This document shows positions 1,208 to 15,158 of a stretch of 24,458 nucleotides of DNA, one piece after another. The stretch is from the IMG/VR virus record IMGVR_UViG_3300025065_000037, positions 1 through 24,458 of that record, one strand, 5' to 3'. The notes beneath the pieces were generated by a model, which was not told where the DNA came from, searched no databases, and saw only the letters and a program-made list of their open reading frames with translations. This DNA comes from a virus. How positions within the stretch are numbered: the first letter of the stretch is position 1; every line of letters starts with the position of its first letter. The position numbers and the translations under genes were made by a program.

Positions 1208-2733
1208 TATCTCTCTATTGCCTCCCTTTGAACCGGTTTCTTATAATATAAATTTCTCATAGTAAAAGTTTCGCTAGCCACAGCATTAGATACTTTTATT
1301 CTTAATTTTTCTGCAAAAATATCGCACTTAACAGAATAGGTTGTCATACTGCTAGTTAAAGTCAAAGTTTCAAGCTCGGTGTAAGTTGCTCCTTCGTCAG
1401 TTGAGTAAGATATTGTTACCGTATCTCCTAACCCTTCAAAAAATAACTCAGTAAAATGAGAATAATATCCAGGAAAAGGTACTATGTCAGCCGAACACCA
1501 ATAAGCTGAGATAGCTGTTCCGTCTTCGTTGGTTAAATCATAATCAAATTTAAAAACTTTTCCATCTTTATCTCCCAAAGATAAAATCGGATAAAAAGTA
1601 TCGCTTATAATCTGGTCGAATATTCCGGTATAAGAATCTATCGTATCGGTTAAATCATCGATTAAAGTTTTAGTAAGTTGCGTCCAGGTCCCGGCCGCAG
1701 TTAGATTAGTTACTAAGTCTTTATAAACTTGGCCAGTATAATAATTGTACCTATAAAGCCTTGTAGGATAATCTTGTCCTCGTATCGGGATAAAAAGCCA
1801 ATATTCGTGAAGCTCGGCCACTATAACCGCAAAAGACTTTTGAATAAGATTAGGGTTTGCATAGTCTTTTAAATCCTCAAATATTCCCGGCACTACTAAT
1901 TTTCCTCTTAATCCATTAAATTGAACTATACCGTGTTTACTTAGGCCTATCACTAAACCTCCGGGAATAGTTTTAACGGTATTCCCTACAAGAAATCCTA
2001 GCCTTCGTTCTACTGAGTCAAACTGCCATATCCGATCATCACCAGTTAAATACCCAACCCAGATACTATCTGTTTTAGGTACAATAGCATTATTGCCAAG
2101 TCTGAATAATCCGGTTATCTCATAGCCATCATCTAAGTCAAAGCTTCCGGCGTGGCTCGCAACCCCTTCTGTCCAACTTTCCGGATCATCATAATCGGGC
2201 CATTGCACTCTTTCCGGATAAATATTAGCTCCATCCTTAATATAACCTAATAAAAGATACCTATTGAATCCAAGTAAATATTTAGGGATCGGAGGACTTC
2301 CGCCTAAAGCAGCAATATTATTTCCTGATCCTTGCCACTTTTGAATAGCGTCAACATAGTTAGTAAAAACCAGAAAATTCTTTCCGCTTATTTTGGCAGT
2401 AGAATAAGAGCAAGGATTTACTACTGTTCCGTTTAATGTTCCATCTGTATAATCTGTCCAAACCGCCCCGGAATTATTCCACCAATAAAATTTAGTAGTA
2501 GTTAAACAGAAAAAATATTTAGTGCCTTCTCGATCAAACTCGCCAAGTAAGACTACATCGCCGCTTAAAGTTGCACCTAACTTAGAATACCCCTCTTTCT
2601 TTTTAATCTGAGTACGTTCTATCCTTACATTTTGACAATCAGGCGTAGCCCGACCGTCAATAAATGCGCCCGGCTTTGAAGTATCAAGCGATAAAACCGG
2701 AATAGGTAAAACTTTCTTTGTCGTTTTTACCAT
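1207..2733 (-). CDS. Tail nozzle / stopper-like protein (P22 gp10 / SU10 nozzle type)
   Basis: This 508-aa protein is rich in beta strands with repeated blades of the form GxxxFxx(Y/W)xxxDxxW. The N-terminus (FIDGRATPDCQNVRIERTQIKKKEGY) resembles phage proteins that open with a 'list of data plus GG/EGY' segment before a beta-propeller-like body. Other visible pieces are YWWNNSGAVWTDYTDG, a central LGFLVGNTVKTIPGG and a C-terminal beta domain. In short-tailed phages such proteins close the portal channel and form the tail tip. The start overlaps the fibre stop by one base, and it sits three genes below the adaptor. The fold assignment rests on length, composition and position. It could also be a different tail hub protein. 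Confidence 0.6.
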   Translation of the reverse strand: MVKTTKKVLPIPVLSLDTSKPGAFIDGRATPDCQNVRIERTQIKKKEGYSKLGATLSGDVVLLGEFDREGTKYFFCLTTTKFYWWNNSGAVWTDYTDGTLNGTVVNPCSYSTAKISGKNFLVFTNYVDAIQKWQGSGNNIAALGGSPPIPKYLLGFNRYLLLGYIKDGANIYPERVQWPDYDDPESWTEGVASHAGSFDLDDGYEITGLFRLGNNAIVPKTDSIWVGYLTGDDRIWQFDSVERRLGFLVGNTVKTIPGGLVIGLSKHGIVQFNGLRGKLVVPGIFEDLKDYANPNLIQKSFAVIVAELHEYWLFIPIRGQDYPTRLYRYNYYTGQVYKDLVTNLTAAGTWTQLTKTLIDDLTDTIDSYTGIFDQIISDTFYPILSLGDKDGKVFKFDYDLTNEDGTAISAYWCSADIVPFPGYYSHFTELFFEGLGDTVTISYSTDEGATYTELETLTLTSSMTTYSVKCDIFAEKLRIKVSNAVASETFTMRNLYYKKPVQREAIER

Positions 2734-4097
2734 TATTCACCTACTAAAGCCTCCACTTCATCTTTAGTTAATCCCAGAGCTTTTAATTTAGTTTTACTAG
2801 CTTCTTTGTCTTGTTCTTTTTTTGCTTTTTCTTGTTCGTATTCAACTCTTTTTTCCTCAGCTTTGATGATTTTCTGAGCTTTCTCCGCAGTAGTTAATCT
2901 TACAAGTTTGCGTACTTTTATATAATCAGGGATTGTTTCAATCAAAACCGGATCCGTGTCTATAAACTCTCCTGAATGTAATGGTACATAGGGTAAATTC
3001 TGGTTAGTAATTTTAAACTCTTCATTGATTAAGGTTGCGATTGATCTGCCGGTAACTTCGCTTTCCTGTTCAAGCAAATTAGTAGTATCTTTGTCTAACA
3101 AAAATAATGTATGATCATCTTCATTGTAATTCAAAAAAGGATGAGATATTTTATCTGGATCACCACCATTACCATAGGAAGGATGATCTTTGGCTGTTGA
3201 AACGGATAATATTTCTTTAGTGTTTTTGTCAATCATAAGAAATGTCCATCTGTCGATACCTGAAGCTGTTACATAACGTTGCTGAGCGTAACAAGTCCCG
3301 CTTTCAATATTTATATAAATAATCGTTGCATAAGAACCCGTGTCTTCACGATTTCTTGCAATTTGAATGCCAGTATCATTACCTATATCTCCTTTTACCT
3401 GTGGATAAAAACCATATTCGCCCCCCGGTAACGTTAAATGGGCATTAGTTGCTGTGCTTACTTCTCCCGAAGCAGTTTTTAAGGCTGTAGTATCTACAGT
3501 ATCATCAGGCATATAATTGTCTGCCCCACATCTGTAAATGACATTTGCCGCTGCTGTCGTTCCTGTATTATATCCATCTAAAGTATCGGCATTGAGATTG
3601 CTTACTTTAGTCGTTGAAGTAATAATCATAGGAGTTGTGCCGTCTGCAATGTCAGCTTGAAGCTGTTGTGCTCTAAATTCGTGTGCCCCTATATCCAAAT
3701 CTCCGCTTGCGGTAAAAGTAGTAACTCCTGTGGCTTTAGTTAAAGTCGTGTTGGTTATAGTTGTTGCTACACTTCCACCCAAAGTAATATTGTCAAGCGT
3801 TCCCCCGTTTATATCAACTGTAGTTACCGTTCCCAAATCAGCGCAAGTTACATTAGCCGCCGTCCAGTTAACCCTCATTTCCGGGCTTTCTCCATCGGCG
3901 GACAAAACCCTTTCGTGGATGTCTTGAGATAAGGTATTTATAAAAGTATCAACTGTGTCCATTGTATCGACAGAACCATCCACCCTGCTATCGTCATCTT
4001 CCCAAGAATTGGTCAAAGCATAAGCAAATTGGCAGCATAAAAATAAAATTGCCCCCACAACTAGAATCTCAAAAATACTTATCCTTTTTTTAATCAT
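2733..4097 (-). CDS. Putative tail fibre with N-terminal Sec signal/anchor (454 aa)
   Basis: Residues 1-27 (MIKKRISIFEILVVGAILF, then CCQFAYA) form a basic start, a hydrophobic core and an AYA cleavage site. This is unusual for a fibre. After it comes a phage-fibre-like segment (WEDDDSRVDGSVDTMDTVDTF), then Thr/Gly/Asn-rich beta repeats (TVTTVDINGGTLDNITLGG), and a 'LNADTLDGYNTG' motif typical of fibres that list variants. The last 55 residues are a Lys/Glu coiled coil (EKAQKIIKAEEKRVEYEQEK). AAGGAGG lies seven bases before the ATG. The gene lies between the adaptor and the nozzle-like gene. Fibre identity is likely. Whether the hydrophobic start is cleaved, anchors the protein, or is used at all is unknown. 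Confidence 0.7.
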   Translation of the reverse strand: MIKKRISIFEILVVGAILFLCCQFAYALTNSWEDDDSRVDGSVDTMDTVDTFINTLSQDIHERVLSADGESPEMRVNWTAANVTCADLGTVTTVDINGGTLDNITLGGSVATTITNTTLTKATGVTTFTASGDLDIGAHEFRAQQLQADIADGTTPMIITSTTKVSNLNADTLDGYNTGTTAAANVIYRCGADNYMPDDTVDTTALKTASGEVSTATNAHLTLPGGEYGFYPQVKGDIGNDTGIQIARNREDTGSYATIIYINIESGTCYAQQRYVTASGIDRWTFLMIDKNTKEILSVSTAKDHPSYGNGGDPDKISHPFLNYNEDDHTLFLLDKDTTNLLEQESEVTGRSIATLINEEFKITNQNLPYVPLHSGEFIDTDPVLIETIPDYIKVRKLVRLTTAEKAQKIIKAEEKRVEYEQEKAKKEQDKEASKTKLKALGLTKDEVEALVGE

Positions 4098-4108
4098 CCT
4101 AAACCTCC

Positions 4109-4765
4109 TTAATAATCATTACACTCAGTTATTGTTTCCACATTACTATTGCGTTTATCCAGTATCGCCAAAGACCTTAGTAGCGATATTCCTTTGAGTT
4201 CTTCTTTGGCTTCTTTATCTTCATCGTCAAGGACGTGCCACAGCTTAGCTTTTAATAAATGCTTAATTACATCTTTAAAGTGATCTCTGAAAGCTATCGC
4301 AACTGAATTAGAACTTACTGCGGCGTGAAGCTTGGTATATGGAAAAGTAATCGTATAACTAGCATCACTCATTGGAGCAAAGTCAAATTGATTCTTTTCT
4401 AAGCAATAATAAGATGGTTTACTCTTACTGCTTGAATTATTTGCCCGGTTAGGATAATGCCAATTCATCCATTCAAGACTTTTCTTTATTAGTGTCCGGC
4501 CTTTGTCGGTATCGTATAATAATTCCGGTTCGCCATACTGAAAGACAAAATCGGAAGGCAAAGCCACAAAATAATCAGTATCTACTATTGATAAACTCCC
4601 ATCTGTTTTTAAATCCTGCAAAGGTATAGGCTCTCCATCCTCAGTCATTGCCCGGCTCATAGCATAAAGAACATCAGGGAATACGGTTTCAAGGTAACTC
4701 TGCTTATCAGTCCTTTTGGTTTCAGTCATCACTTCTGTTATGATTGCGTCTCTGGTTAACGACAT
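4109..4765 (-). CDS. Head-tail adaptor protein (SU10 adaptor-like)
   Basis: This 218-aa protein follows the pattern of phage adaptor proteins that sit under the portal ring. It has an N-terminal helix (TRDAIITEVMTETKRTD), a conserved central piece with LPSDFV and a following Pro-rich YYCLEKNQFDFAPMSDASYTITFPY. A helical C-terminal arm follows, with 'FRDHFKDVIKHLLKAKLWHV' and an acidic DDEDKEAKEELK. The length fits the family (about 180-230 aa). A TAGGAGGAT site precedes the start. Unusually, it is about 9.4 kb away from the capsid gene, while adaptors usually follow the capsid gene closely. Confidence is fairly high because motif order and size agree. Confidence 0.7.
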   Translation of the reverse strand: MSLTRDAIITEVMTETKRTDKQSYLETVFPDVLYAMSRAMTEDGEPIPLQDLKTDGSLSIVDTDYFVALPSDFVFQYGEPELLYDTDKGRTLIKKSLEWMNWHYPNRANNSSSKSKPSYYCLEKNQFDFAPMSDASYTITFPYTKLHAAVSSNSVAIAFRDHFKDVIKHLLKAKLWHVLDDEDKEAKEELKGISLLRSLAILDKRNSNVETITECNDY

Positions 4766-4780
4766 TCTTATCCTCCTAAT

Positions 4781-5311
4781 TTAATCATCAAACCAATATC
4801 CTAGAATCTTCATCTTAAGATGCCTTTTGAAAATCTCGTTTATATCCGAAGGTGCCGGATGCTCAGGGGTAGCTATACTAAAAATCTTGCGTATATAAGG
4901 AACGACCCTCTCTGAACAGTATCTAGCCCAGGGAATATTGATTTTGCGTATTCTGATTAACTGTCCGAATATTCCCAAGAAGTCATACATATTTCTCCAC
5001 CAGGGAGCCTTGAGGTCTTTCTCAACCATTTTGAGAAATTCCTTCTTTGCGGTTTCTGAAAGATTCTCACATTGCCAGAATTTAAGCATAATCGAGGGCT
5101 TCATATATTTTTTAACTGGAACCTCTTTATGGCCATTAAAACCCTGAGAAGCAAAGTAACTCTCTCGATGCATAACCATAACGTGATTATAATTTCCCTT
5201 AGTGTGCATCTTTATTCCAAAGCTAATGAAAGTCCGACGATTGTCAGAGAACACTATTAGAGGTAAATCCTCCTTAGTTATCTGTAAAGGGTTTATGAAT
5301 TTCCTACTCAT
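4781..5311 (-). CDS. Permuted NlpC/P60-like cysteine peptidase (candidate endolysin)
   Basis: The order of the likely catalytic residues is His first, Cys later, as in circularly permuted NlpC/P60 (YiiX/LRAT-like) proteins. His43 lies in GNYNHVMVMHRE and Cys132 in ARYCSERVVPYI. An N-terminal strand (LPLIVFSDNRR) precedes the His. The family hydrolyses amide or ester bonds, often in peptidoglycan. The length (176 aa) is normal for such a domain and no signal peptide is seen. The ATG overlaps the lipoprotein stop (ATGA), and GAGG lies about eight bases upstream. With the spanin-like pair upstream, a role in wall cleavage during lysis is inferred. A virion-borne hydrolase is an alternative. Confidence 0.6.
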   Translation of the reverse strand: MSRKFINPLQITKEDLPLIVFSDNRRTFISFGIKMHTKGNYNHVMVMHRESYFASQGFNGHKEVPVKKYMKPSIMLKFWQCENLSETAKKEFLKMVEKDLKAPWWRNMYDFLGIFGQLIRIRKINIPWARYCSERVVPYIRKIFSIATPEHPAPSDINEIFKRHLKMKILGYWFDD

Positions 5312-5825: not shown

Positions 5826-6166
5826 CAGCGATCTCCGTTGGATATTTTATCCCATATTTTATTTATCGTGCCTTTCATCTCCCCTACATCGTTTTTAGTA
5901 TGGGTTACATCGGTTTGAAGCCTTACTATATCTTCGTTTTGTTTCTGATTCACCTCAGTATTTTTAGCTACTTCAACCTTCATCAACGCATCAGTTTCAG
6001 CAAGTGCCTCGGTCTTAGTATTCATATTAGCCCACCAGACGATAGCTAAGAACACCGCTCCAATAGTAGGAAACAGAAATGCAACGTATTCCCTCATAGT
6101 AAGTTTTATCACTATCGGAGTCTTTCTTCTTTCCTCGCCTTTGTGTCCGTTGCCTTCGAGTTTCAT
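5825..6166 (-). CDS. Membrane-anchored coiled-coil protein (113 aa), possible i-spanin or holin-like
   Basis: A basic N-terminus (about residues 1-25, HKGEERRKTPIVIKL) is followed by one membrane segment (about 27-46, VAFLFPTIGAVFLAIVWW). The rest, to residue 110, is predicted coiled coil (KNTEVNQKQNEDIVRLQTDV). The charge pattern predicts N-in, C-out topology, as in inner-membrane spanins. XhlA-type holin accessories have the reverse order (coil first, membrane segment last), which speaks against that family. The start overlaps the upstream stop by 4 bases (ATGA). The 58-aa lipoprotein lies about 340 bases downstream, which supports a spanin-like pair but does not prove it. Confidence 0.65.
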   Translation of the reverse strand: MKLEGNGHKGEERRKTPIVIKLTMREYVAFLFPTIGAVFLAIVWWANMNTKTEALAETDALMKVEVAKNTEVNQKQNEDIVRLQTDVTHTKNDVGEMKGTINKIWDKISNGDR

Positions 6167-6534
6167 TCCACTACTTCAATAACTTGTCCTATCCCCGTAG
6201 CGTAAAGTTCCCTGTAAGCCTTAGCTAATTTTTTACCGAAAGTTTTTTTTAGGAACTTAGCTATCTCTTTCTCGGTGTAGGGTTCTTCTCTGAGTTCCCC
6301 GTAAACAATAGGTCTTATCGGGATATTCATATTTACATTATCCCCGACCGCCTGTCCGTTTAGCTGGACTATAATCGGGCAATAAGCACTTCCACCCCTG
6401 CCATCGCCTATCTGTTGATTAAAAACCATTGTAGCTCTTACATTACTTATCCTATCTAGCTCAATAGTCCTCTGTGCCCAAACTGCCCCGAAAATGGAAA
6501 GTGAAACCAGAAACAAACCTAATGCTTTTCTCAT
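6163..6534 (-). CDS. Exported protein of unknown function (123 aa)
   Basis: I place the start at 6534 rather than at an earlier ATG at 6603, because AAGGAGG lies directly upstream and the resulting N-terminus (MRKALGLFLVSLSIFGAVWA) is a clean Sec signal peptide with cleavage after VWA. The mature part has a beta-like first half (RATMVFNQQIGDGRGG, one Cys in GSAYCPIIVQL) and a helical second half (EKEIAKFLKKTFGKKLAKAY). No family recognised. It overlaps the spanin-like gene by 4 bases. Location in the periplasm is predicted from the signal peptide. Confidence 0.7.
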   Translation of the reverse strand: MRKALGLFLVSLSIFGAVWAQRTIELDRISNVRATMVFNQQIGDGRGGSAYCPIIVQLNGQAVGDNVNMNIPIRPIVYGELREEPYTEKEIAKFLKKTFGKKLAKAYRELYATGIGQVIEVVE

Positions 6535-6547
6535 ACAAACCTCCTTT

Positions 6548-6829
6548 TTAACCAAAGAAAAATGGTTGACTATATGGTGGACCAAAAACAAACAAACTCT
6601 CATTCACAACCCTTGAATCTATTTTCATTTTCTTCATTATATTTAATGCTGTTTTTTTCTTTTTCGGTTTAACATATTCTGCTTTAGGGGCTATAAAATC
6701 TTCTGCTACAGAAGTCCCCATTATTAAATTATAAATCACTCCTGCTGTAAGGAGTTTTTTATAAATACCTTGCTTTTGCGTCAACATGGAACGGCCTCGT
6801 TTCGAAATCCGCATAGACTTCTCCGCCAT
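6548..6829 (-). CDS. Small unknown protein, uncertain start (up to 93 aa)
   Basis: Three in-frame ATGs are possible, each with a weak or fair upstream GGAG/GAGG: 6829 (93 aa), 6814 and 6787 (79 aa, MLTQKQGIYKKLLTAGVIYN). The last overlaps the glycosyltransferase by only 29 bases and is my preference. The protein has a short hydrophobic stretch (LLTAGVIYNLIMGTSVAEDF), a Lys-rich middle (YVKPKKKKTALNIMKKMK) and an aromatic end (FGPPYSQPFFFG). It is not obviously a membrane protein. I recognise no family. Confidence 0.5.
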   Translation of the reverse strand: MAEKSMRISKRGRSMLTQKQGIYKKLLTAGVIYNLIMGTSVAEDFIAPKAEYVKPKKKKTALNIMKKMKIDSRVVNESLFVFGPPYSQPFFFG

Positions 6830-7559
6830 TTTTAGTTATCTCCAATCCAAGTAGAATATCAAGACCATAAGGCCGTGCCATACCTTTAGGTTTAGTAACT
6901 GGTTTAAATGGATATTTTCTTTTTAATATTTTAGGCATCCGGGAACGGATAAAAAGATTTATCCCTAAAGCCCCAGTAACTACCTTCTGCACTCCCCAAG
7001 GGCAAGAAGGCTGCACAAGCACTTGAACAAGTTCAACCTTACCCTTTTTATCTACTACTGGTATTTGTGCCAAATCAAACGCCATTACCGCCTGTTCAAA
7101 GTGCCTATCATTGAATACGCCCATCAACTCTACCGCCTTGGGCTTTTCATCTATAATATTGACAAACTTCTTTAATGTTCCGTGAGGCAGGATTATGTCA
7201 TCCTCAAGGGTAAATACATAATCAGTATCTATATACTGCCAAGCTGCGTTATAAAGAGAAGCTATGTTGTTTAAATGCCTATGTGCTATATTCAGTTGTT
7301 CACCTTTCTTATGGTCTTTCATCTGGGAAAGGCATAATTGAGTAGGCGGGAGTGTCTGGTCGTGGATAATTTTTATATCCTTAAAACCTATCAAAGATTT
7401 TGAAACTAACCTAAGAGTATCAGCAAATATTGTCGGACAGTTACAATACCATAAAAGCCTTAATTTCTCTTTTGGATAGTCAATGTTTTTAAGCCCGTAA
7501 AGATAATGGCTTAGACTTCCCCACCTGCCTGAGAATAGAGATACAACTGTTATTTCCAT
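6759..7559 (-). CDS. GT-A-type glycosyltransferase-like protein
   Basis: The 266-aa protein opens with a Rossmann-like strand and turn (MEITVVSLFSGRWGSL). The acidic metal/nucleotide-sugar motif is YVFTLEDDIILP (Glu119-Asp121), preceded by a helix (ASLYNAAWQYIDTD) as in GT2-like enzymes. Later pieces (PSCPWGVQKVVTGALGINLFI and RPYGLDILLGLEI) would form the acceptor side. No membrane segment is seen, unlike GtrB-type phage transferases. The start is ATG at 7559 with GGAG five to six bases upstream, overlapping the sulfotransferase stop by 10 bases. It likely transfers a sugar to a host glycan or virion component. Donor and acceptor are unknown. Confidence 0.65.
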   Translation of the reverse strand: MEITVVSLFSGRWGSLSHYLYGLKNIDYPKEKLRLLWYCNCPTIFADTLRLVSKSLIGFKDIKIIHDQTLPPTQLCLSQMKDHKKGEQLNIAHRHLNNIASLYNAAWQYIDTDYVFTLEDDIILPHGTLKKFVNIIDEKPKAVELMGVFNDRHFEQAVMAFDLAQIPVVDKKGKVELVQVLVQPSCPWGVQKVVTGALGINLFIRSRMPKILKRKYPFKPVTKPKGMARPYGLDILLGLEITKNGGEVYADFETRPFHVDAKARYL

Positions 7560-8179
7560 ACTAACTCCGTATTGAATTTATCTTCTAACTCAAGAAACTG
7601 AGCCATTTCCTTACATACTTTCTTAGGATTAGCTTGCAAGGCTTCAAGCTCTATTACCAATACATTTGGTTCTTTTTGTATTTTTTCTATAATAGCTTTA
7701 AAGCGTTCATATTCTATTGATAACTTCTTCATCCACCCAGTCTCGACCCAGGGCTGCTGCATAAAAGATTTCAAAACAGCTTCCCTTTTTCTTATAGGAA
7801 TAATCATTCTATAATCAGGAAATAACATCCTAAGATAAGGAAGATTCATAAGATATTGAGCATACTTATCCCCAAAGTATTCTACTCCCTCATCATAGTA
7901 GATTTCCTCAACAGCCCTTCTAAGGTTTTCAGCTATTGTATTCCTTATCCTAACCCATTCTCCTACATTGTTGGCTACATAAGAGAACTGGTCGGGGTGT
8001 GTTTTAAAGTCTACATTATTATGCCAGGAGAGGCTTTTAAGATACATAAGCATAGTCTGTATTACCCGCTTCTCAGTAGTCATCTTAATTTGGGGATGAG
8101 AGTCAAGAAGCTTTGCTGTAATCGTTGTGCCGTTTCTACCTTGTCCTGTTACAATTAAAGGTTTCATTTTACGTATCAT
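7550..8179 (-). CDS. PAPS-dependent sulfotransferase-like protein
   Basis: The 209-aa protein carries the two PAPS-binding signatures. The 5'-phosphosulfate loop is IVTGQGRNGTTITAKLLDSHP (about residues 9-30). The 3'-phosphate site is PIRKREAVLKSF, with Arg130 and Ser138 eight apart as in known sulfotransferases. FGDKYAQYL before it and VLVIELEALQANPKKVCKEM after it also match. It would move sulfate from PAPS to a hydroxyl of a glycan or other substrate. Two starts are possible, 8179 (10-base... 11-base overlap with the fibre stop) and 8167 (MKPLIVTG). Neither has a strong ribosome site. It is shorter than many family members, but both motifs are complete. Confidence 0.75.
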   Translation of the reverse strand: MIRKMKPLIVTGQGRNGTTITAKLLDSHPQIKMTTEKRVIQTMLMYLKSLSWHNNVDFKTHPDQFSYVANNVGEWVRIRNTIAENLRRAVEEIYYDEGVEYFGDKYAQYLMNLPYLRMLFPDYRMIIPIRKREAVLKSFMQQPWVETGWMKKLSIEYERFKAIIEKIQKEPNVLVIELEALQANPKKVCKEMAQFLELEDKFNTELVWK

Positions 8180-10601
8180 TATATTGACTTATTCCATATT
8201 CAATTCTTAAACCCATAAATTTTGCGTCTACGCCTAAATTATCGTCTGATACATCCCTATACACTCTGAAATGGCAGTATTCCCCCGCTGTGGCTCCTGT
8301 CAAGGTAACCGCCCCGCTTTCGGCTGACTCGTGCAAATCATTGGCTGTGATTAAAGTGTCCACCACTTCAACCGCAGTTCCCCATGCTTGGTCTAAAGCG
8401 TCGCTATCGGCGTATGACCTGCCCTGTAAGTCCCATGCTACCGTTCCTGATCCTGATGCCGCTGTCCAAACAACATGAAAAGTAACTGTTCCTGCATCCC
8501 AATTCTTCGGCATAATCAGAGAGAATTGAGCATATTCATCCGCACTCGTATCAAAATCTAAAGTCTGTATATCCACATCATTCGTGCCAAGTTCTGTTTT
8601 AGTTATAGCTGAACACCCACTTGTTGTAGACGGCCACATAGCGGTTGCTGGTATGAAGATTGACTTTTTGGGATCAGCGTTGGCTATCTGTATATTGTCT
8701 GTGGCGTTAGTAAGATTAATGTCACCGGATACTTCTAAAGGATCGTTAGGACTCGTTACTCCGACCATACCGACATTGCCATTACCCAAGACTGTTATAT
8801 AATCTACATTGCCTAATATATTTTGAAAACTAAACGCTACATCAGTTCCAGTAACATTCTGCCAAGTAGTGCCGTTAGCCTTACCTGCCCTAAATGTCAC
8901 TACACCAACAGAAGGTGCTGCTCCACCAGATATACCCTGAAAGAGAAAACCACCTATATCGCTTGTTTCACTTAATCCCCTAAAAGAGCATCCTCCTTTT
9001 GAACCCGACCATTTATCTACTACCATATAAACATCTGTAGGGGCTAAGTCTGTCATGCCGTGAGCTATATTGGTGCTATCGCCTACATATACTGGTGTAT
9101 CACCAGCTTTATTTACATGAAGCGTGTTCGCAGGACTCGTTGTCCCTATGCCGACATTGCCTCCTTGTGTTACCCTAAACTTCTCATCATTATCAATTCT
9201 AACTCTAAAATCATCACCTGCTGAAATATCCATCGAAACAATGCTTGACCCTATGCCCCACACCGCAGTTGTTCCGTCATCATCTTCAAGTTTAACCTTG
9301 TCAGTAGTAGTATCATAGATATAAAGTCTCGGCCCAGCAGTCGTAGTTCCTAGGCGTAAGTCCCCCGTCATTATTACGTCATTACCGCTTGGAGTAATGG
9401 TCAAAAGACCGTCGCCATCCACCCCGAAATCACAGTGGTCAACACCGTCTGTGTGGGTCAACCTTAACTGCGTACCAGAGTCGTCTAAAACCTCTAATGC
9501 TTTGTCAGGTCCTGTATCATTTATACCAACCATCTCATAAAGTCCGTTTATGAAAAGCACCTTGGGGTGGTTGGCTGAACCAAACGCCACGTCTCGGTTC
9601 CCATCTCCCTCAAATGTTAAGTCACCTGCGCTGTTGAACAACCTGCCGATCTCCGCTGTTCCGTCAGCACCGCCAATGTAGAAAGATGTGTTACCGCTGA
9701 TCCTGAGGTTTGCATCGCAGACGTCCAGGGTGTCGGGAGCTGGCGTAGCATCAAACTCTAGTCTGGCGTTGTTGGGGGAACCTAACCCTATCCAGTTATC
9801 ATCCGCAAGATATATGTCTTGTGTGAACACCACATCCCCATCGGCTTCTATTTGGATAGCATCTGTGTCACTTACAGAACCAATATAGCGAGCATCGCCT
9901 ATTATAAGATCATTTATCGTAGCATTGCCAGTAGTAACAATATTATCACTATCGTCTATTGTTACCCCTGTGGGTTGGGTAGTTACCCCATCAGTTCCGT
10001 CAAAAGCGGGTATAGAATTATCAACGACCGTTCCTGCATCAGTCAGATAAAGTCCTGCGTGGTTTCCCCACCCATAGGCAGTATCCCAATTAGAGAAGTC
10101 CTTCCAGTCTAAATTACCAGGGTCGTCATCCCACATTAAAAGCCTGTCAGCATTAGGGTCAGCCGGAAATATTGTATCTGTTCCGCCCACTGCTAGAACT
10201 GACTCAGTTATATCAGTAGCGTCATAAGTTCCGGTTACATCGCCTGCAAAGCTATCGCCTAACTCTATGTATTCGTCATCGTGAATACCTGAGTCAACGG
10301 TAGGTGAAGCCCAGGTGCCGCCTAGTTCTCCCCCAGGGGTTGTGCCTACTGCTATTTCTCCTGTAAGAGTAGCGTTGGCTGTGCCTACGAGATAGTCGGC
10401 ATCTATGGGGGCAAAATTCCCTGCTGTTCCGGCCCCAATCTCTTGGAGGGCAGCTTCGGCAGTAGCTCCAGTATAATAAGCTCCCGCATCATCAATCTTG
10501 ATATACCGGGCTCTATTGATTGGAACGCTCCGGATATTTTGGGAGTATCCGGCTAACCAAAACAATGATAGTAATATAATGGAGAATGTTTTTTTAATCA
10601 T
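8169..10601 (-). CDS. Large fibre-like protein with N-terminal signal peptide (810 aa)
   Basis: I set the start at 10601. GGAG lies eight bases upstream and the N-terminus becomes a Sec signal peptide (MIKKTFSIILLSLFWLAGYS). The earlier in-frame ATG at 10712 would overlap the previous gene by 119 bases. The body is Gly/Asp/Thr-rich beta repeat. Fibre-type segments include LTGEIAVGTTPGGELGGTW near residue 100 and three 'GIG..SP...L.V' motifs near 360, 485 and 610, a form common before S74-type fibre ends. No S74 peptidase follows. The C-terminal domain (about 660-810) is a beta sandwich-like AWDLQGRSYADSDALD...GLRIEYG. It may bind receptors as a tail fibre or be displayed outside the cell. Confidence 0.75.
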   Translation of the reverse strand: MIKKTFSIILLSLFWLAGYSQNIRSVPINRARYIKIDDAGAYYTGATAEAALQEIGAGTAGNFAPIDADYLVGTANATLTGEIAVGTTPGGELGGTWASPTVDSGIHDDEYIELGDSFAGDVTGTYDATDITESVLAVGGTDTIFPADPNADRLLMWDDDPGNLDWKDFSNWDTAYGWGNHAGLYLTDAGTVVDNSIPAFDGTDGVTTQPTGVTIDDSDNIVTTGNATINDLIIGDARYIGSVSDTDAIQIEADGDVVFTQDIYLADDNWIGLGSPNNARLEFDATPAPDTLDVCDANLRISGNTSFYIGGADGTAEIGRLFNSAGDLTFEGDGNRDVAFGSANHPKVLFINGLYEMVGINDTGPDKALEVLDDSGTQLRLTHTDGVDHCDFGVDGDGLLTITPSGNDVIMTGDLRLGTTTAGPRLYIYDTTTDKVKLEDDDGTTAVWGIGSSIVSMDISAGDDFRVRIDNDEKFRVTQGGNVGIGTTSPANTLHVNKAGDTPVYVGDSTNIAHGMTDLAPTDVYMVVDKWSGSKGGCSFRGLSETSDIGGFLFQGISGGAAPSVGVVTFRAGKANGTTWQNVTGTDVAFSFQNILGNVDYITVLGNGNVGMVGVTSPNDPLEVSGDINLTNATDNIQIANADPKKSIFIPATAMWPSTTSGCSAITKTELGTNDVDIQTLDFDTSADEYAQFSLIMPKNWDAGTVTFHVVWTAASGSGTVAWDLQGRSYADSDALDQAWGTAVEVVDTLITANDLHESAESGAVTLTGATAGEYCHFRVYRDVSDDNLGVDAKFMGLRIEYGISQYNDT

Positions 10602-10890
10602 ATTCAATTCTCCGAACGTTAGCTGTCTGACCGGAAGCACAAACAAGATATATGCTAAAACCGGTCTTGCAATTACTGAATATCTTGCCTCCCATAATCG
10701 GTGCTCCATCATTAGAATCTACCGAAGAACCTCCATAGTAAATCTCATTTGTCTCGGCCGGTCCGGGGACAAATTCAATACTATTTCTACCAGTAGTTAA
10801 GGTAACTTCCTGAGGCGTGTCTGTAACCGTCAAGGCACTTTGGTTATAGACCTTGCCTACTTCCTGGACTCCTGATGGCGTTCTTTTCAT
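10594..10890 (-). CDS. Small beta-rich virion-type protein (98 aa)
   Basis: The sequence (SALTVTDTPQEVTLTTGRNS, then EIYYGGSSVDSNDGAPIMGG and FSIYLVCASGQTANVRRIEY) follows a pattern often seen in small phage decoration proteins: a strand, an IYxGxxxV turn, a Gly-rich loop and a final strand. This is a pattern match by memory, not a database hit. The Shine-Dalgarno sequence is weak (AAAAAAGTAA before the ATG). The stop overlaps the fibre start by 8 bases. Role inferred: a head or tail decoration protein. Confidence 0.6.
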   Translation of the reverse strand: MKRTPSGVQEVGKVYNQSALTVTDTPQEVTLTTGRNSIEFVPGPAETNEIYYGGSSVDSNDGAPIMGGKIFSNCKTGFSIYLVCASGQTANVRRIEYD

Positions 10891-10898
10891 TTACTTTT

Positions 10899-11465
10899 TT
10901 AAGGTTTTTTTACTTTATCAGAAAACCCAACACTTTTACGTCCACAATGCGGACATAAATGGTTAATAACGCAAGTCTCAACCGGCCTTTCAGTAATAAT
11001 CGCATTTTCAACAACAACATCCTTCATAACTAGATTCGGAACCGGAGTATCGACCTTTACTAAATTAGGGACTTTTTCATCGTAATAAGATAGCTTTGGA
11101 ACTCTTACTACATACTCTTCGATTACCGGAATCCTCTTAATCACTTTTTCAAATTCATAAATAGTAACCTTTTTCGTTTCGGTATTAAGGATAAGGTTTT
11201 TAACTACTATGTCTTTTGGGATGAAGTTCGGCACTTCAACGACCCTGTCCTTCTCGATAATATTTACTTTCTCAACCGGCACGATTTTATCCTGGAGTAT
11301 CGGATTGATAACAACCTTATCTTCTTCGACGATGTTAATTTTTTTGATTTCTTCTTCAACGAACTTTGGCTGTTTAATTACTATAGAATCTTCAACTATA
11401 TCGATATTATTTACCTCAATAACCTCAATGATAGCGCCTGAACTATTTCTCCTAATAACCTTCAT
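10899..11465 (-). CDS. Val/Pro tandem-repeat protein with C-terminal CPHC knuckle
   Basis: The 188-aa protein is built from imperfect repeats of about 22-24 residues: INIVEEDKVVINPILQDKIV (about 43-62), then VNIIEKDRVVEVPNFIPKDI (about 67-86), with a weaker copy at 21-40. Shorter VPNLVxxDxxV units (about 132-152) follow. The alternating V/I, K/E and P pattern resembles the EKxVEVP repeats of alveolin-type and other filament-forming proteins. The end has Cys165, His169, Cys171 and Cys174 (NHLCPHCGRK), a possible zinc site. GGAGGGTTGGT precedes the ATG. No function is known. An extended structural or anchoring role is inferred. Confidence 0.7.
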   Translation of the reverse strand: MKVIRRNSSGAIIEVIEVNNIDIVEDSIVIKQPKFVEEEIKKINIVEEDKVVINPILQDKIVPVEKVNIIEKDRVVEVPNFIPKDIVVKNLILNTETKKVTIYEFEKVIKRIPVIEEYVVRVPKLSYYDEKVPNLVKVDTPVPNLVMKDVVVENAIITERPVETCVINHLCPHCGRKSVGFSDKVKKP

Positions 11466-11476
11466 ACCAACCCTCC

Positions 11477-11776
11477 TTACATTTTGCGTAGATACCGCAC
11501 AATTATTTTGGCATCTGAGCCGCCTGCTCTTATCGCTCTAAAACCCAATATTTCGGCTTCTCCTTCCAATTCAAAGGAACTTCCGGCAAATTCGCCAAAT
11601 CCAGTAGTAGATGTCGGATCTGTTCCATCAAGATAAAATCTTATAGGTGCGTCTAATACTTGAACTAGAGCTTTTTGAGCACTGCCCCATCCTCCGGAAG
11701 CAGCATAAGTGCCGGCAGTTAGAGTTTTAACAGCAGAACTAACCGTAATTGTTTCTTTCGCAAATTCTCTTAACAT
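11477..11776 (-). CDS. Small beta-rich virion-type protein (99 aa)
   Basis: The start is supported by AAGGAGGAAGGGTT upstream, and the ATG overlaps the membrane-protein stop by 7 bases. The protein (ITVSSAVKTLTAGTYAASGG, ALVQVLDAPIRFYLDGTDP, then AEILGFRAIRAGGSDAKIIV) has the form of small phage beta-sandwich proteins that report 'value at a Gly-Asp loop'. It has no membrane segment or signal peptide. A decoration or head-fibre role is inferred from size, composition and neighbours. Confidence 0.65.
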   Translation of the reverse strand: MLREFAKETITVSSAVKTLTAGTYAASGGWGSAQKALVQVLDAPIRFYLDGTDPTSTTGFGEFAGSSFELEGEAEILGFRAIRAGGSDAKIIVRYLRKM

Positions 11777-12777
11777 AACCCTTCCTCCTTTTTTTGTTCG
11801 ATAGCGAAATAGGCTATCGTGAATATTAGTAATGGATACAGCCTGGGTATCTCAAAAGGGTATTCAAACAGACAAAGAAATAATAAAGGCACCAGATACC
11901 ATTTGAGCTTTCTTAAACATAAACCGATAAAGACTAACCCGGAGCTTCCGACCCCATAAATCCATTGCAGAAAAGATGACAAACCATAATCCCCTATCTT
12001 GAAATTCCCCAGACCGAATCCGGCAAGCGGCCGTTGAGCTAGATGGTTGATTATTTCTTTCCAAACCAGGAATCTTATCGCAAAAGAATCCAGTATGCTT
12101 TTATGAAAAAATGAAACGGCGATCAGGGCGCTCCCAATAACAGCCATTTTTATCCAGGAAACATCGAATCTTTTAGCTTCATAACCCAAGACCACAAAGA
12201 CAGAAACAAACACCGAAGCCTCTTTTAGCAAAACTCCAATAATCAATGCTGGTATTATATAAATTCTTTTCACAAAAGGAAGGCTGAGAGCTATAAAGGC
12301 AGCAAACCGGGGAGAATTGCCGATAATACCTCCATATTCGTGGATAACAGACGGAGTGCCTCCAGACCCGGTAAAGGTAGCAGGATCGATAAAGGGGCTA
12401 TACCCGAATAGCTGACCGAAAAAAATTAGAGTATTTATCCCTAATCCGATCATCAGCCAATTCAGGCATTTCTTTAAATCCTCAGAATAGACGGCGAGTA
12501 TATAAACATCAACACAAGAAAAGAAAAGAATGGTAAGGGCTGATAAGCACCTGTTCTGGAAATTGTTTACTGCAACCGAGAATAAACATATCCCCAGAAA
12601 CAAAACGGTTATCTTTTTTATATTAAATTCTCTCTTCGGCGTATCAAACATAGCCGAGGCAAAGAGAATGATTGAAGCGAGCTGAAAAAATATAAGCTCA
12701 AACTTATAGGGACCAACCCCAACGCAGTAAGCTATTGGGGTAAATAGAAGAATAACTTTAAATATTCTATCTACCAT
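11770..12777 (-). CDS. O-antigen polymerase/ligase-like polytopic membrane protein
   Basis: At least eight hydrophobic segments span the length. A late periplasmic-type loop carries the Wzy_C/WaaL signature: FAIRFLVWKEIINHLAQRPL (Arg plus Trp), then AGFGLGNF and SSFLQWIYGVGSSGLVFIGL. In such proteins this region handles undecaprenyl-linked glycans in the inner membrane. The usual His of the motif is not seen. I prefer ATG at 12777 (335 aa, MVDRIFKVILLF) over ATG at 12807, since the first ten codons of the longer form are a GC-rich hairpin. Neither has a clear ribosome site. It sits among virion genes. Phage D3 of Pseudomonas encodes a polymerase that changes O-antigen linkage, so serotype conversion is a fair hypothesis. 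Confidence 0.7.
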   Translation of the reverse strand: MVDRIFKVILLFTPIAYCVGVGPYKFELIFFQLASIILFASAMFDTPKREFNIKKITVLFLGICLFSVAVNNFQNRCLSALTILFFSCVDVYILAVYSEDLKKCLNWLMIGLGINTLIFFGQLFGYSPFIDPATFTGSGGTPSVIHEYGGIIGNSPRFAAFIALSLPFVKRIYIIPALIIGVLLKEASVFVSVFVVLGYEAKRFDVSWIKMAVIGSALIAVSFFHKSILDSFAIRFLVWKEIINHLAQRPLAGFGLGNFKIGDYGLSSFLQWIYGVGSSGLVFIGLCLRKLKWYLVPLLFLCLFEYPFEIPRLYPLLIFTIAYFAIEQKKEEGLC

Positions 12778-12805: not shown

Positions 12806-12811
12806 ATTAGC

Positions 12812-13198
12812 TTACTGTGTGTATTCTACCGAAATATGGAAACCCGAGTTATAACCCGGAGCGTCAACATACAATCCTGTAGCAATCTCGCTGTCATTAA
12901 GCTTTAGAAACACCGTATCTCCGGCTGTACCTATTGAAATATCCCATTTAGGGGTACCGGTTGCGCTAGTGTTATCATAAAGCAAAAGATAATCGAGCGC
13001 CGTTGTATGCGGCCCACTTACAGTTATGCTCTGCAAATTACATTGCCCGGTGATCAACTGGTTTCCTGCGCTAATCTGGCTGCCGCTTGCTGTTGCTATC
13101 GATGATGGATTGTCAGCGTAGAACAAACTCTGGGCAAAAACGGACGGCACCCAAAGCAACATCATTGCCAACGCTAATAAGATAAACTTCTTTCTCAT
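12812..13198 (-). CDS. Exported small beta-rich protein (128 aa)
   Basis: Residues 1-22 (MRKKFILLALAMMLLWVPSV, then FA) are a classical Sec signal peptide with cleavage at VFA|QS. The mature 106 residues (QLITGQCNLQSITVSGPHTT, then DYLLLYDNTSATGTPKWDIS and EIATGLYVDAPGYNSGFHIS) read like the small beta-sandwich virion proteins at 11477 and 10594. AAGGAGG precedes the ATG. A virion-type domain with a signal peptide is unusual. Possible roles are a protein secreted to the periplasm or surface, or a virion protein with a borrowed leader. Confidence 0.7.
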   Translation of the reverse strand: MRKKFILLALAMMLLWVPSVFAQSLFYADNPSSIATASGSQISAGNQLITGQCNLQSITVSGPHTTALDYLLLYDNTSATGTPKWDISIGTAGDTVFLKLNDSEIATGLYVDAPGYNSGFHISVEYTQ

Positions 13199-14138: not shown

Positions 14139-15158
14139 TTATAGACTGGTCGCGTAAGTATCAATCGCTACGATTGCGTGATCAACACTATTAAAAATAG
14201 TTTTCTGAACTCCCCAGATAGCGCCGGTACAAATAGCCCACTTGTTGTCATAATCAAAAGATTTCTCAACCCACTTACCCTCTTTACCTAAGGCCAAAAC
14301 TAGAGCCTGTGCTCCCATAACCAATGCTCTAGCTCCCGGCTGATCAGAAGTAGATCCCCAGGTTGAAAAAGTAGGCACGTAATTATGAGTATGGATAATG
14401 AGATTATCGACTATCGCATCGGCCCCCGAGAATAAAGGATTACCCAAACCTCTTAATCCGGCATCTTTCTGCAAGGTAAGGTAACTATCATCCTGCATTA
14501 AGTCATACCTCTGATTCGGATGAATTAACATAAGATAGTAGGATTTTCCTTTATACTTAATAGGCCTGATCTTAGGAGTCAAAGTCATAATTGTATTGCT
14601 GATTTTGAAAAGCAAAGATAGGGTCATTTTATCGGCGCTGTCAATATCGGCATCCTCAGTTGCATTTCCACCGTAAATAACCCGAGTCGAACTAGGAGCA
14701 ACCGGAGTATTCGAGAAAGTGTAAGCTACGATTCCTCCGCCTTTTCTGAAAAACTCTTTAGTCATAATCTCAGACTGCCACTCTCCCAACAAACGCCTTG
14801 CCTCAGGCCGCATATTGATTTCATTCTTCTGCTCGTCCATTTCACCTTGAAGCCTGACCGCATTACGTTTTTGATTGATTTCAATATCCTGGCTATAGGT
14901 CGTTGCTTCTTCCTCGTTGCCTTCCTGTTCATCGTCTCCATCTCTACCTTCTCCGCTTAGCTTGATGATCAACGGAATAGTAACCTTAGAACCTTTCTTG
15001 GTCTTAAAATCCGGCTTCAAGAAAATCGGGGCCGGAGCTGCCCGATTAGCAGACATCATACCGTTTTGCTTAAAAAATATTTCTTCGATCGCATCTATCA
15101 AGGTCTGGCGCTGCCATAATTGGGATCTCATCGCACTTATTGAACCAGTATTACCCAT
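14139..15158 (-). CDS. Major capsid protein (N4-gp56 type)
   Basis: The 339-aa protein matches the N4-gp56/DUF4043 coat family as I know it: an N-terminal helix (SQLWQRQTLIDAIEEIFFKQ), a loop with KKGSKVTIPLIIKLSGEGR, then an acidic loop (DDEQEGNEEEATTY). The hallmark IEINQKRNAVRLQGEMDEQK and REARRLLGEW-type helix follow (PEARRLLGEWQSEIMTKEFF). A late beta part holds YLMLIHPNQRYDLMQD. The length fits. AAGGAGGAAAA lies before the ATG. It follows scaffold and portal genes, the order expected for a head module. It forms the icosahedral shell with HK97-type fold (family knowledge). Confidence 0.85.
   Translation of the reverse strand: MGNTGSISAMRSQLWQRQTLIDAIEEIFFKQNGMMSANRAAPAPIFLKPDFKTKKGSKVTIPLIIKLSGEGRDGDDEQEGNEEEATTYSQDIEINQKRNAVRLQGEMDEQKNEINMRPEARRLLGEWQSEIMTKEFFRKGGGIVAYTFSNTPVAPSSTRVIYGGNATEDADIDSADKMTLSLLFKISNTIMTLTPKIRPIKYKGKSYYLMLIHPNQRYDLMQDDSYLTLQKDAGLRGLGNPLFSGADAIVDNLIIHTHNYVPTFSTWGSTSDQPGARALVMGAQALVLALGKEGKWVEKSFDYDNKWAICTGAIWGVQKTIFNSVDHAIVAIDTYATSL

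Follow-up and report, generated by a model that had tools for sequence, protein, structure and literature searches.

A virus record of 24,458 bp from IMG/VR (IMGVR_UViG_3300025065_000037), which comes without an attached host genome and is considered here at its full length ("the window"), carries three genes with glycan-related family resemblances among its structural genes. They encode a Wzy-like polytopic membrane protein (WZY), a sulfotransferase (ST) of the type dependent on 3'-phosphoadenosine 5'-phosphosulfate (PAPS), and a glycosyltransferase (GT). Judged by gene content and conservation, they form two layers. One is a Wzy-like gene conserved as part of the core; the other is a private cassette adjoining a divergent fibre gene. 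It is tentatively proposed (probability about 0.42) that both layers belong to a glycan-modifying set in a podophage late operon, which would alter a surface glycan of the host.

Gene order and conservation in the late operon

The contig represents a podophage late region. PHROG family matches comprise the terminase subunits, portal, major capsid, and a head-packaging virion protein, and the capsid shares 27-34% identity with podophage-type capsids, which are among its best public phage matches. The original prediction, drawn from the nucleotide sequence alone, had described an O-antigen polymerase/ligase-like gene, a sulfotransferase gene with both PAPS motifs, and a glycosyltransferase-like gene, tightly spaced among virion-type genes on a common strand and forming a late-expressed module. 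The three open reading frames (ORFs) are indeed present at 11770..12777 (WZY), 7550..8179 (ST), and 6759..7559 (GT) on the minus strand, as is every gene followed here, and the family calls are upheld by the searches described below. Interleaving and tight spacing are confirmed by overlaps of 7-11 bp (fibre/ST 11 bp, ST/GT 10 bp, WZY/g16 7 bp), and late expression fits the late, co-directional position of the genes. In a scan for promoters and terminators, promoter-like sites were rarer in the window than in shuffled sequences.

The sole near-full-length sister phage (3300003885_000018; 38,432 bp) is syntenic with the window from terminase to g1. Its Wzy-like gene occupies the same slot, between g18 and g16, and is 59% identical. 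ST, GT, and the adjoining small genes g10 and g9 are not present in the sister, and family searches of its record returned no sulfotransferase or GT2. The sister fibre is shorter and leads straight into the next genes; both fibres have in common only the N-terminal part and a short stretch, while the distal parts differ. A single co-inherited module of three genes, as predicted originally, is rejected because the sister has WZY without ST and GT, which are found only in the window contig. The nonsynonymous divergence (dN) between window and sister is 0.30 for WZY, 0.28 for the portal, 0.33 for g18, and 0.35 for the adaptor, synonymous sites being saturated or nearly so, and WZY is therefore a core gene under constraint. 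ST, GT, g10, and g9, whose genes overlap or abut closely, present themselves as a private, tightly packed cassette beside the altered fibre.

The same slot, between decoration protein and adaptor, is also occupied by glycan enzymes in distant podophages. In a podophage from Manatee Spring (capsid 34% identical), this stretch contains a TPR protein, an HNH endonuclease, a methyltransferase, and a GT8 gene (L029, 19284-22717), and in a second phage (L008; capsid 33%) it has a weak GT4-like gene after a g19-like gene. By these family assignments, the slot holds a glycosyltransferase in the former and probably in the latter. Searches for the three Pfam families in question found nothing in fourteen other viral records (L005 and G004-G016, among them several short fragments, one being L008), and the slot is therefore not always filled by these families.

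These data bear on the reading that WZY, ST, and GT are unrelated single-gene accessories (morons) without a common pathway, WZY serving a purpose of its own and ST/GT being passengers or degenerating. In its favour, the sister does not carry all three genes together, and no relative of any of them was found in the searched phage records. Scans of viral contigs likewise found no close relative of ST or GT. The moron reading is nevertheless very unlikely in view of a WZY constrained like core genes, the retention of all catalytic residues in ST, the packing of ST, GT, g10, and g9 with overlaps or close abutment, and the glycan enzymes in the corresponding slot of distant podophages.

The Wzy-like membrane protein

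WZY is predicted to contain about 11-12 transmembrane (TM) helices. Its start at 12777 is an ATG; an alternative ATG is located upstream at 12807, from which residue numbers are counted here. In a scan against all 24,736 Pfam models, Wzy_C (PF04932; cut-off 31.7 bits) was the best family for the sister protein (19.3 bits, E=0.001) and the sole family listed for the window protein, the latter with a low score (6.5 bits, E=8.8). In searches restricted to the phages' own records, the E-values were 3.5e-4 (14.5 bits) for the window and 1.6e-5 for the sister. The curated cut-off is reached by neither protein. Two positive controls were run against the same model: E. coli WaaL scores 50 bits, and Wzy-beta of Pseudomonas phage D3, a proven O-antigen polymerase, reaches 21.9 bits, likewise under the cut-off and similar to the sister. 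None of four locally shuffled decoys of the sister protein matched Wzy_C.

The topology is that of Wzy_C-type proteins, with TM segments and an R...W...P..G.G.G.F loop between late TM helices that is kept in both phages (R245...W249...GFGLGNF, then SSFLQW, in the window). A fold model from two sequences, of low confidence (mean predicted local distance difference test score, pLDDT, of 37), also shows helices. hhalign sets IRFLVWKEIINHLAQRPLAGFGLGNF in register with the equivalent loop of known Wzy_C members (P=0.0009, at a probability of only 24%). On these grounds WZY very probably belongs to the Wzy_C superfamily, as a divergent member. O-antigen ligases carry a catalytic HN-type histidine after the loop. 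The HN dipeptide is missing in WZY and in its sister, with SSFLQW in its place, which makes catalysis uncertain; an active enzyme is considered less likely than superfamily membership since both phages have SS in place of the ligase-type histidine.

The sulfotransferase and glycosyltransferase cassette

ST matches Pfam Sulfotransfer_3 over profile positions 1-213 of 216 (E=1.7e-16, over the cut-off) and contains both PAPS motifs, GQGRNGTT with R15 and R130...S138. The residues R15, E36, R38, K105, R130, and S138 are in register with protein-tyrosine sulfotransferases in an alignment to their PDB structures, and a Caballeronia homologue shares the catalytic residues. Three features are named as essential for sulfotransferases, an arginine in the 5'-phosphosulfate-binding (5'-PSB) motif, a serine in the 3'-phosphate-binding (3'-PB) motif, and a Glu/His base in between (PMC6637879); ST offers R15, S138, and E36, respectively. 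Its fold prediction, from one sequence, has a mean pLDDT of 36. Among solved structures, only protein-tyrosine sulfotransferases match ST convincingly. The nodulation protein NoeE, which sulfates an oligosaccharide signal, matches as well (E=6.8e-6), and the resemblance to tyrosine sulfotransferases therefore leaves the acceptor unfixed.

GT is a GT2-like glycosyltransferase with an LEDD metal-binding motif. It matches Glycos_transf_2 (PF00535) just above the cut-off (24.7 against 23.3 bits, E=2.5e-5) and only over profile positions 47-115 of 168, with LEDD inside the matched stretch (79-148). Neither a signal peptide nor a TM segment was detected in GT or ST; both are therefore probably cytosolic. 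The cassette is completed by g10 (6548..6829, minus strand), a small ORF overlapping the GT end, and g9 (6163..6534, minus strand), a small protein with a signal-peptide-like N-terminus.

The position of the cassette also suits a different target, i.e. the virion itself. GT and ST would then modify the fibre or another virion protein, with ST sulfating a tyrosine or a fibre glycan. ST and GT come right after the fibre gene with overlaps, they are missing in the sister, where the distal part of the fibre differs, the structural matches of ST are to tyrosine sulfotransferases, and glycosylated capsid and tail subunits of phages were reported (PMC12619734; PMC11256854). However, the likeness of ST to tyrosine sulfotransferases concerns a generic sulfotransferase core, with NoeE matching as well, the conserved Wzy-like gene is left unexplained, and the apparent Sec signal on the fibre makes a shared cytosolic residence with GT and ST uncertain. 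Fibre decoration is regarded as somewhat unlikely in itself but ranks close behind remodelling of a host glycan and is nearly as plausible, because of the tight gene coupling and the reported glycosylated subunits.

Signal-peptide-like starts of fibre-type proteins

The fibre-like protein is encoded at 8169..10601 (minus strand). Its probable true start is the internal ATG at 10601, as that of g9 is at 6534, according to the Shine-Dalgarno sequences and signal-peptide-like N-termini found there. The fibre N-terminus, MIKKTFSIILLSLFWLAGYS followed by QNIRS, is signal-peptide-like and lies behind GGAG; this part is kept in the sister, and the distal part is variable. The C-terminal domain is 44% identical to gp74 of EBPR siphovirus 2, and this protein and a Pelagibacter phage protein, neither of which starts with such a segment, have regions in common with the fibre. 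A clear signal-peptide-like N-terminus is found on g18 (12812..13198, minus strand), a small protein directly upstream of WZY with 60% identity to its sister counterpart. The second fibre-like protein, g4 (2733..4097, minus strand), combines a conserved N-terminus of this type and LWEDDDSRVDGS with a distal part that varies in three phages. The N-termini of g18, g9, and g4 are positively charged, hydrophobic, of AxA type, and located behind AGGAGG. The sister retains them on g18 and the fibre, and that of g4 is kept in the sister and in a third phage (L018).

The signal-peptide calls come from a simple heuristic, and 5 of 96 late genes from five control podophages satisfy it too. By this measure, the number of such starts in the window is unremarkable, and it is their conservation on fibre-type proteins that is remarkable. 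Export of fibre-type and small late proteins would be unusual; a literature search on exported phage fibres found nothing relevant.

As a separate observation, antisense HNH/NUMOD-like endonuclease ORFs occur where the sister encodes its g4 fibre (L003, 15479-15913 and 17340-17813, minus strand). Their overlap is with the upstream portion of the long plus-strand ORF over g4, which is itself probably an artefact of them.

Conserved export signals next to a Wzy-like protein could indicate periplasmic protein glycosylation, with WZY acting like an O-oligosaccharyltransferase that places a lipid-linked host glycan on Sec-exported g18, fibre, g4, and g9, and with GT and ST tailoring the glycan. Wzy_C-related enzymes include protein O-glycosylases. 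Consistent with this, g18 adjoins WZY, the N-termini of g18, the fibre, and g4 are conserved and each preceded by a Shine-Dalgarno sequence in the window, and the sister conserves WZY together with g18 and the fibre N-terminus. Against it stand the absence of any match to protein O-glycosylase families the putative nature of both export and virion incorporation, and the use of a simple heuristic that control genes pass as well. It is judged unlikely, more so than fibre decoration. A full version, in which the fibre-type proteins and g18 would be Sec-exported and glycosylated in the periplasm by WZY with a lipid-linked host glycan sulfated via GT/ST, to be acquired by the virion outside the cytoplasm, is the least probable of all readings considered.

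Proposed remodelling of a host surface glycan

From the observed gene content and conservation, we infer the following functions for WZY and the cassette. Wzy-type enzymes use lipid-linked glycans at the outer face of the inner membrane. The first layer would consist of a core inner-membrane enzyme of the Wzy_C type, produced late alongside the capsid genes, which at the periplasmic face may polymerise or ligate lipid-linked units of the host's surface glycan in a manner unlike that of the host. In the second layer, the cytosolic GT2 and the PAPS-dependent ST would alter the glycan units prior to export. As a net effect, the infected cell and its debris would stop presenting the receptor of the phage's fibre, and this loss may limit superinfection and the loss of progeny (masking or exclusion). 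Since it is the fibre that determines the receptor to be altered, the cassette would change along with it. For lytic phages, masking of the receptor by a changed O-antigen has been put forward (PMC12373910).

The proposal is favoured by the Wzy_C match of WZY, with a sister score similar to that of D3 Wzy-beta, by the constraint on WZY in slot and sequence, by intact ST and GT genes that are coupled to the fibre gene, and by a fibre whose distal part differs where ST and GT are missing. Further points in its favour are the GT8 gene and the weak GT4-like gene in the corresponding slot of two distant podophages, and a Wzy_C gene on S. meliloti pSymB that lies close to several sulfotransferase matches. 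Several points weigh against it. The sister does without ST and GT, whose presence is known from one contig (the near-identical contig L004 stops inside the fibre), and only one phage pair shows the cassette and the fibre varying together. For WZY, these points include the low Wzy_C score of the window protein, the missing HN dipeptide, and the low confidence of the fold model; with a home-made profile of six Wzy members, it does not score above its shuffled copies. Scans of GTDB genomes with WZY and capsid alignments found neither a prophage nor a host.

Comparison with known systems

Phages are known to carry polymerases, glycosyltransferases, and sulfotransferase genes. The original prediction had pointed to Pseudomonas phage D3, whose cluster (iap, O-acetylase, wzy-beta) likewise places a Wzy_C-type polymerase near a tail-protein region. 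This comparison is sound as to the polymerase family and fails as to the cluster: in D3, wzy-beta runs against its acetylase and tail-gene neighbours on the other strand, whereas WZY lies inside the structural operon on the same strand, and no acetylase or acyltransferase match was obtained among ten proteins of the region (the polymerase-inhibitor peptide was not sought). A D3-type seroconversion cluster is rejected on the ground that a polymerase candidate is present without an acetylase match. Gtr cassettes (gtrA/gtrB/gtr-type) resemble the window, in one reading, by a phage glycosyltransferase acting on a host glycan, but the GT of the window is soluble and located within late genes. Near GT, neither a small flippase with several TM segments nor a polytopic specific transferase was found, WZY being the sole multi-TM protein of the listed genes, and a Gtr-type cassette is rejected as neither a gtrA-type flippase nor a polytopic Gtr is among them.

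Glycosyltransferases of mycobacteriophages (Che8, Rita-type) are proposed to act on virion proteins; they belong to a different phage group, and the available extracts mention no sulfotransferase or Wzy-like partner. Sulfotransfer-family genes are described for uncultivated phages and environmental viral contigs (PMC8290583; PMC10829341; PMC12285232), and in the extracts of these papers, unlike in the window, no fibre-coupled or Wzy-associated context is given. The pairing of genes has a cellular parallel on the megaplasmid pSymB of S. meliloti (NC_003078.1, 803-818 kb, L052), where a polysaccharide-type cluster contains a Wzy_C gene and several Sulfotransfer_3 matches within ~15 kb.

Neighbouring genes

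The late operon is anchored by the major capsid protein (phrog_334; 14139..15158, minus strand). The other border of the variable slot is formed by g5 (4109..4765, minus strand), an SU10-type adaptor (PF24175, E=1.7e-10). Between WZY and the fibre lie three conserved late proteins on the minus strand: the small g16 (11477..11776; 66% identity with the sister), which overlaps the WZY end, g15 (10899..11465; 43%), and the small g14 (10594..10890; 73%). Next to the adaptor, g6 (4781-5311) has a weak phrog_1128 match and the H/C motifs NHVMVMH and YCSERV, which are suggestive of a permuted NlpC-like amidase, perhaps in a lysis cassette with g7 and g8. In the sister (G001), an intein-like segment with the C-terminal sequence ...FYANDILVHNT seemingly interrupts a helicase-like gene, whose parts flank an endonuclease-like ORF (L027, 10002-11579, minus strand).

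Implications

What is new is the arrangement, in which a Wzy-like core late gene is combined with a fibre-linked ST/GT cassette and exported-looking fibres. If WZY is active, this podophage lineage would possess glycan remodelling as a conserved late function and not as a trait of lysogenic conversion, and the slot from decoration protein to adaptor would be an exchange site for receptor-altering enzymes along with fibres. ST offers a concrete and assayable chemistry, the PAPS-dependent transfer of sulfate. The signal-peptide-like N-termini of the fibres raise the question of whether virion proteins are exported by some tailed phages.

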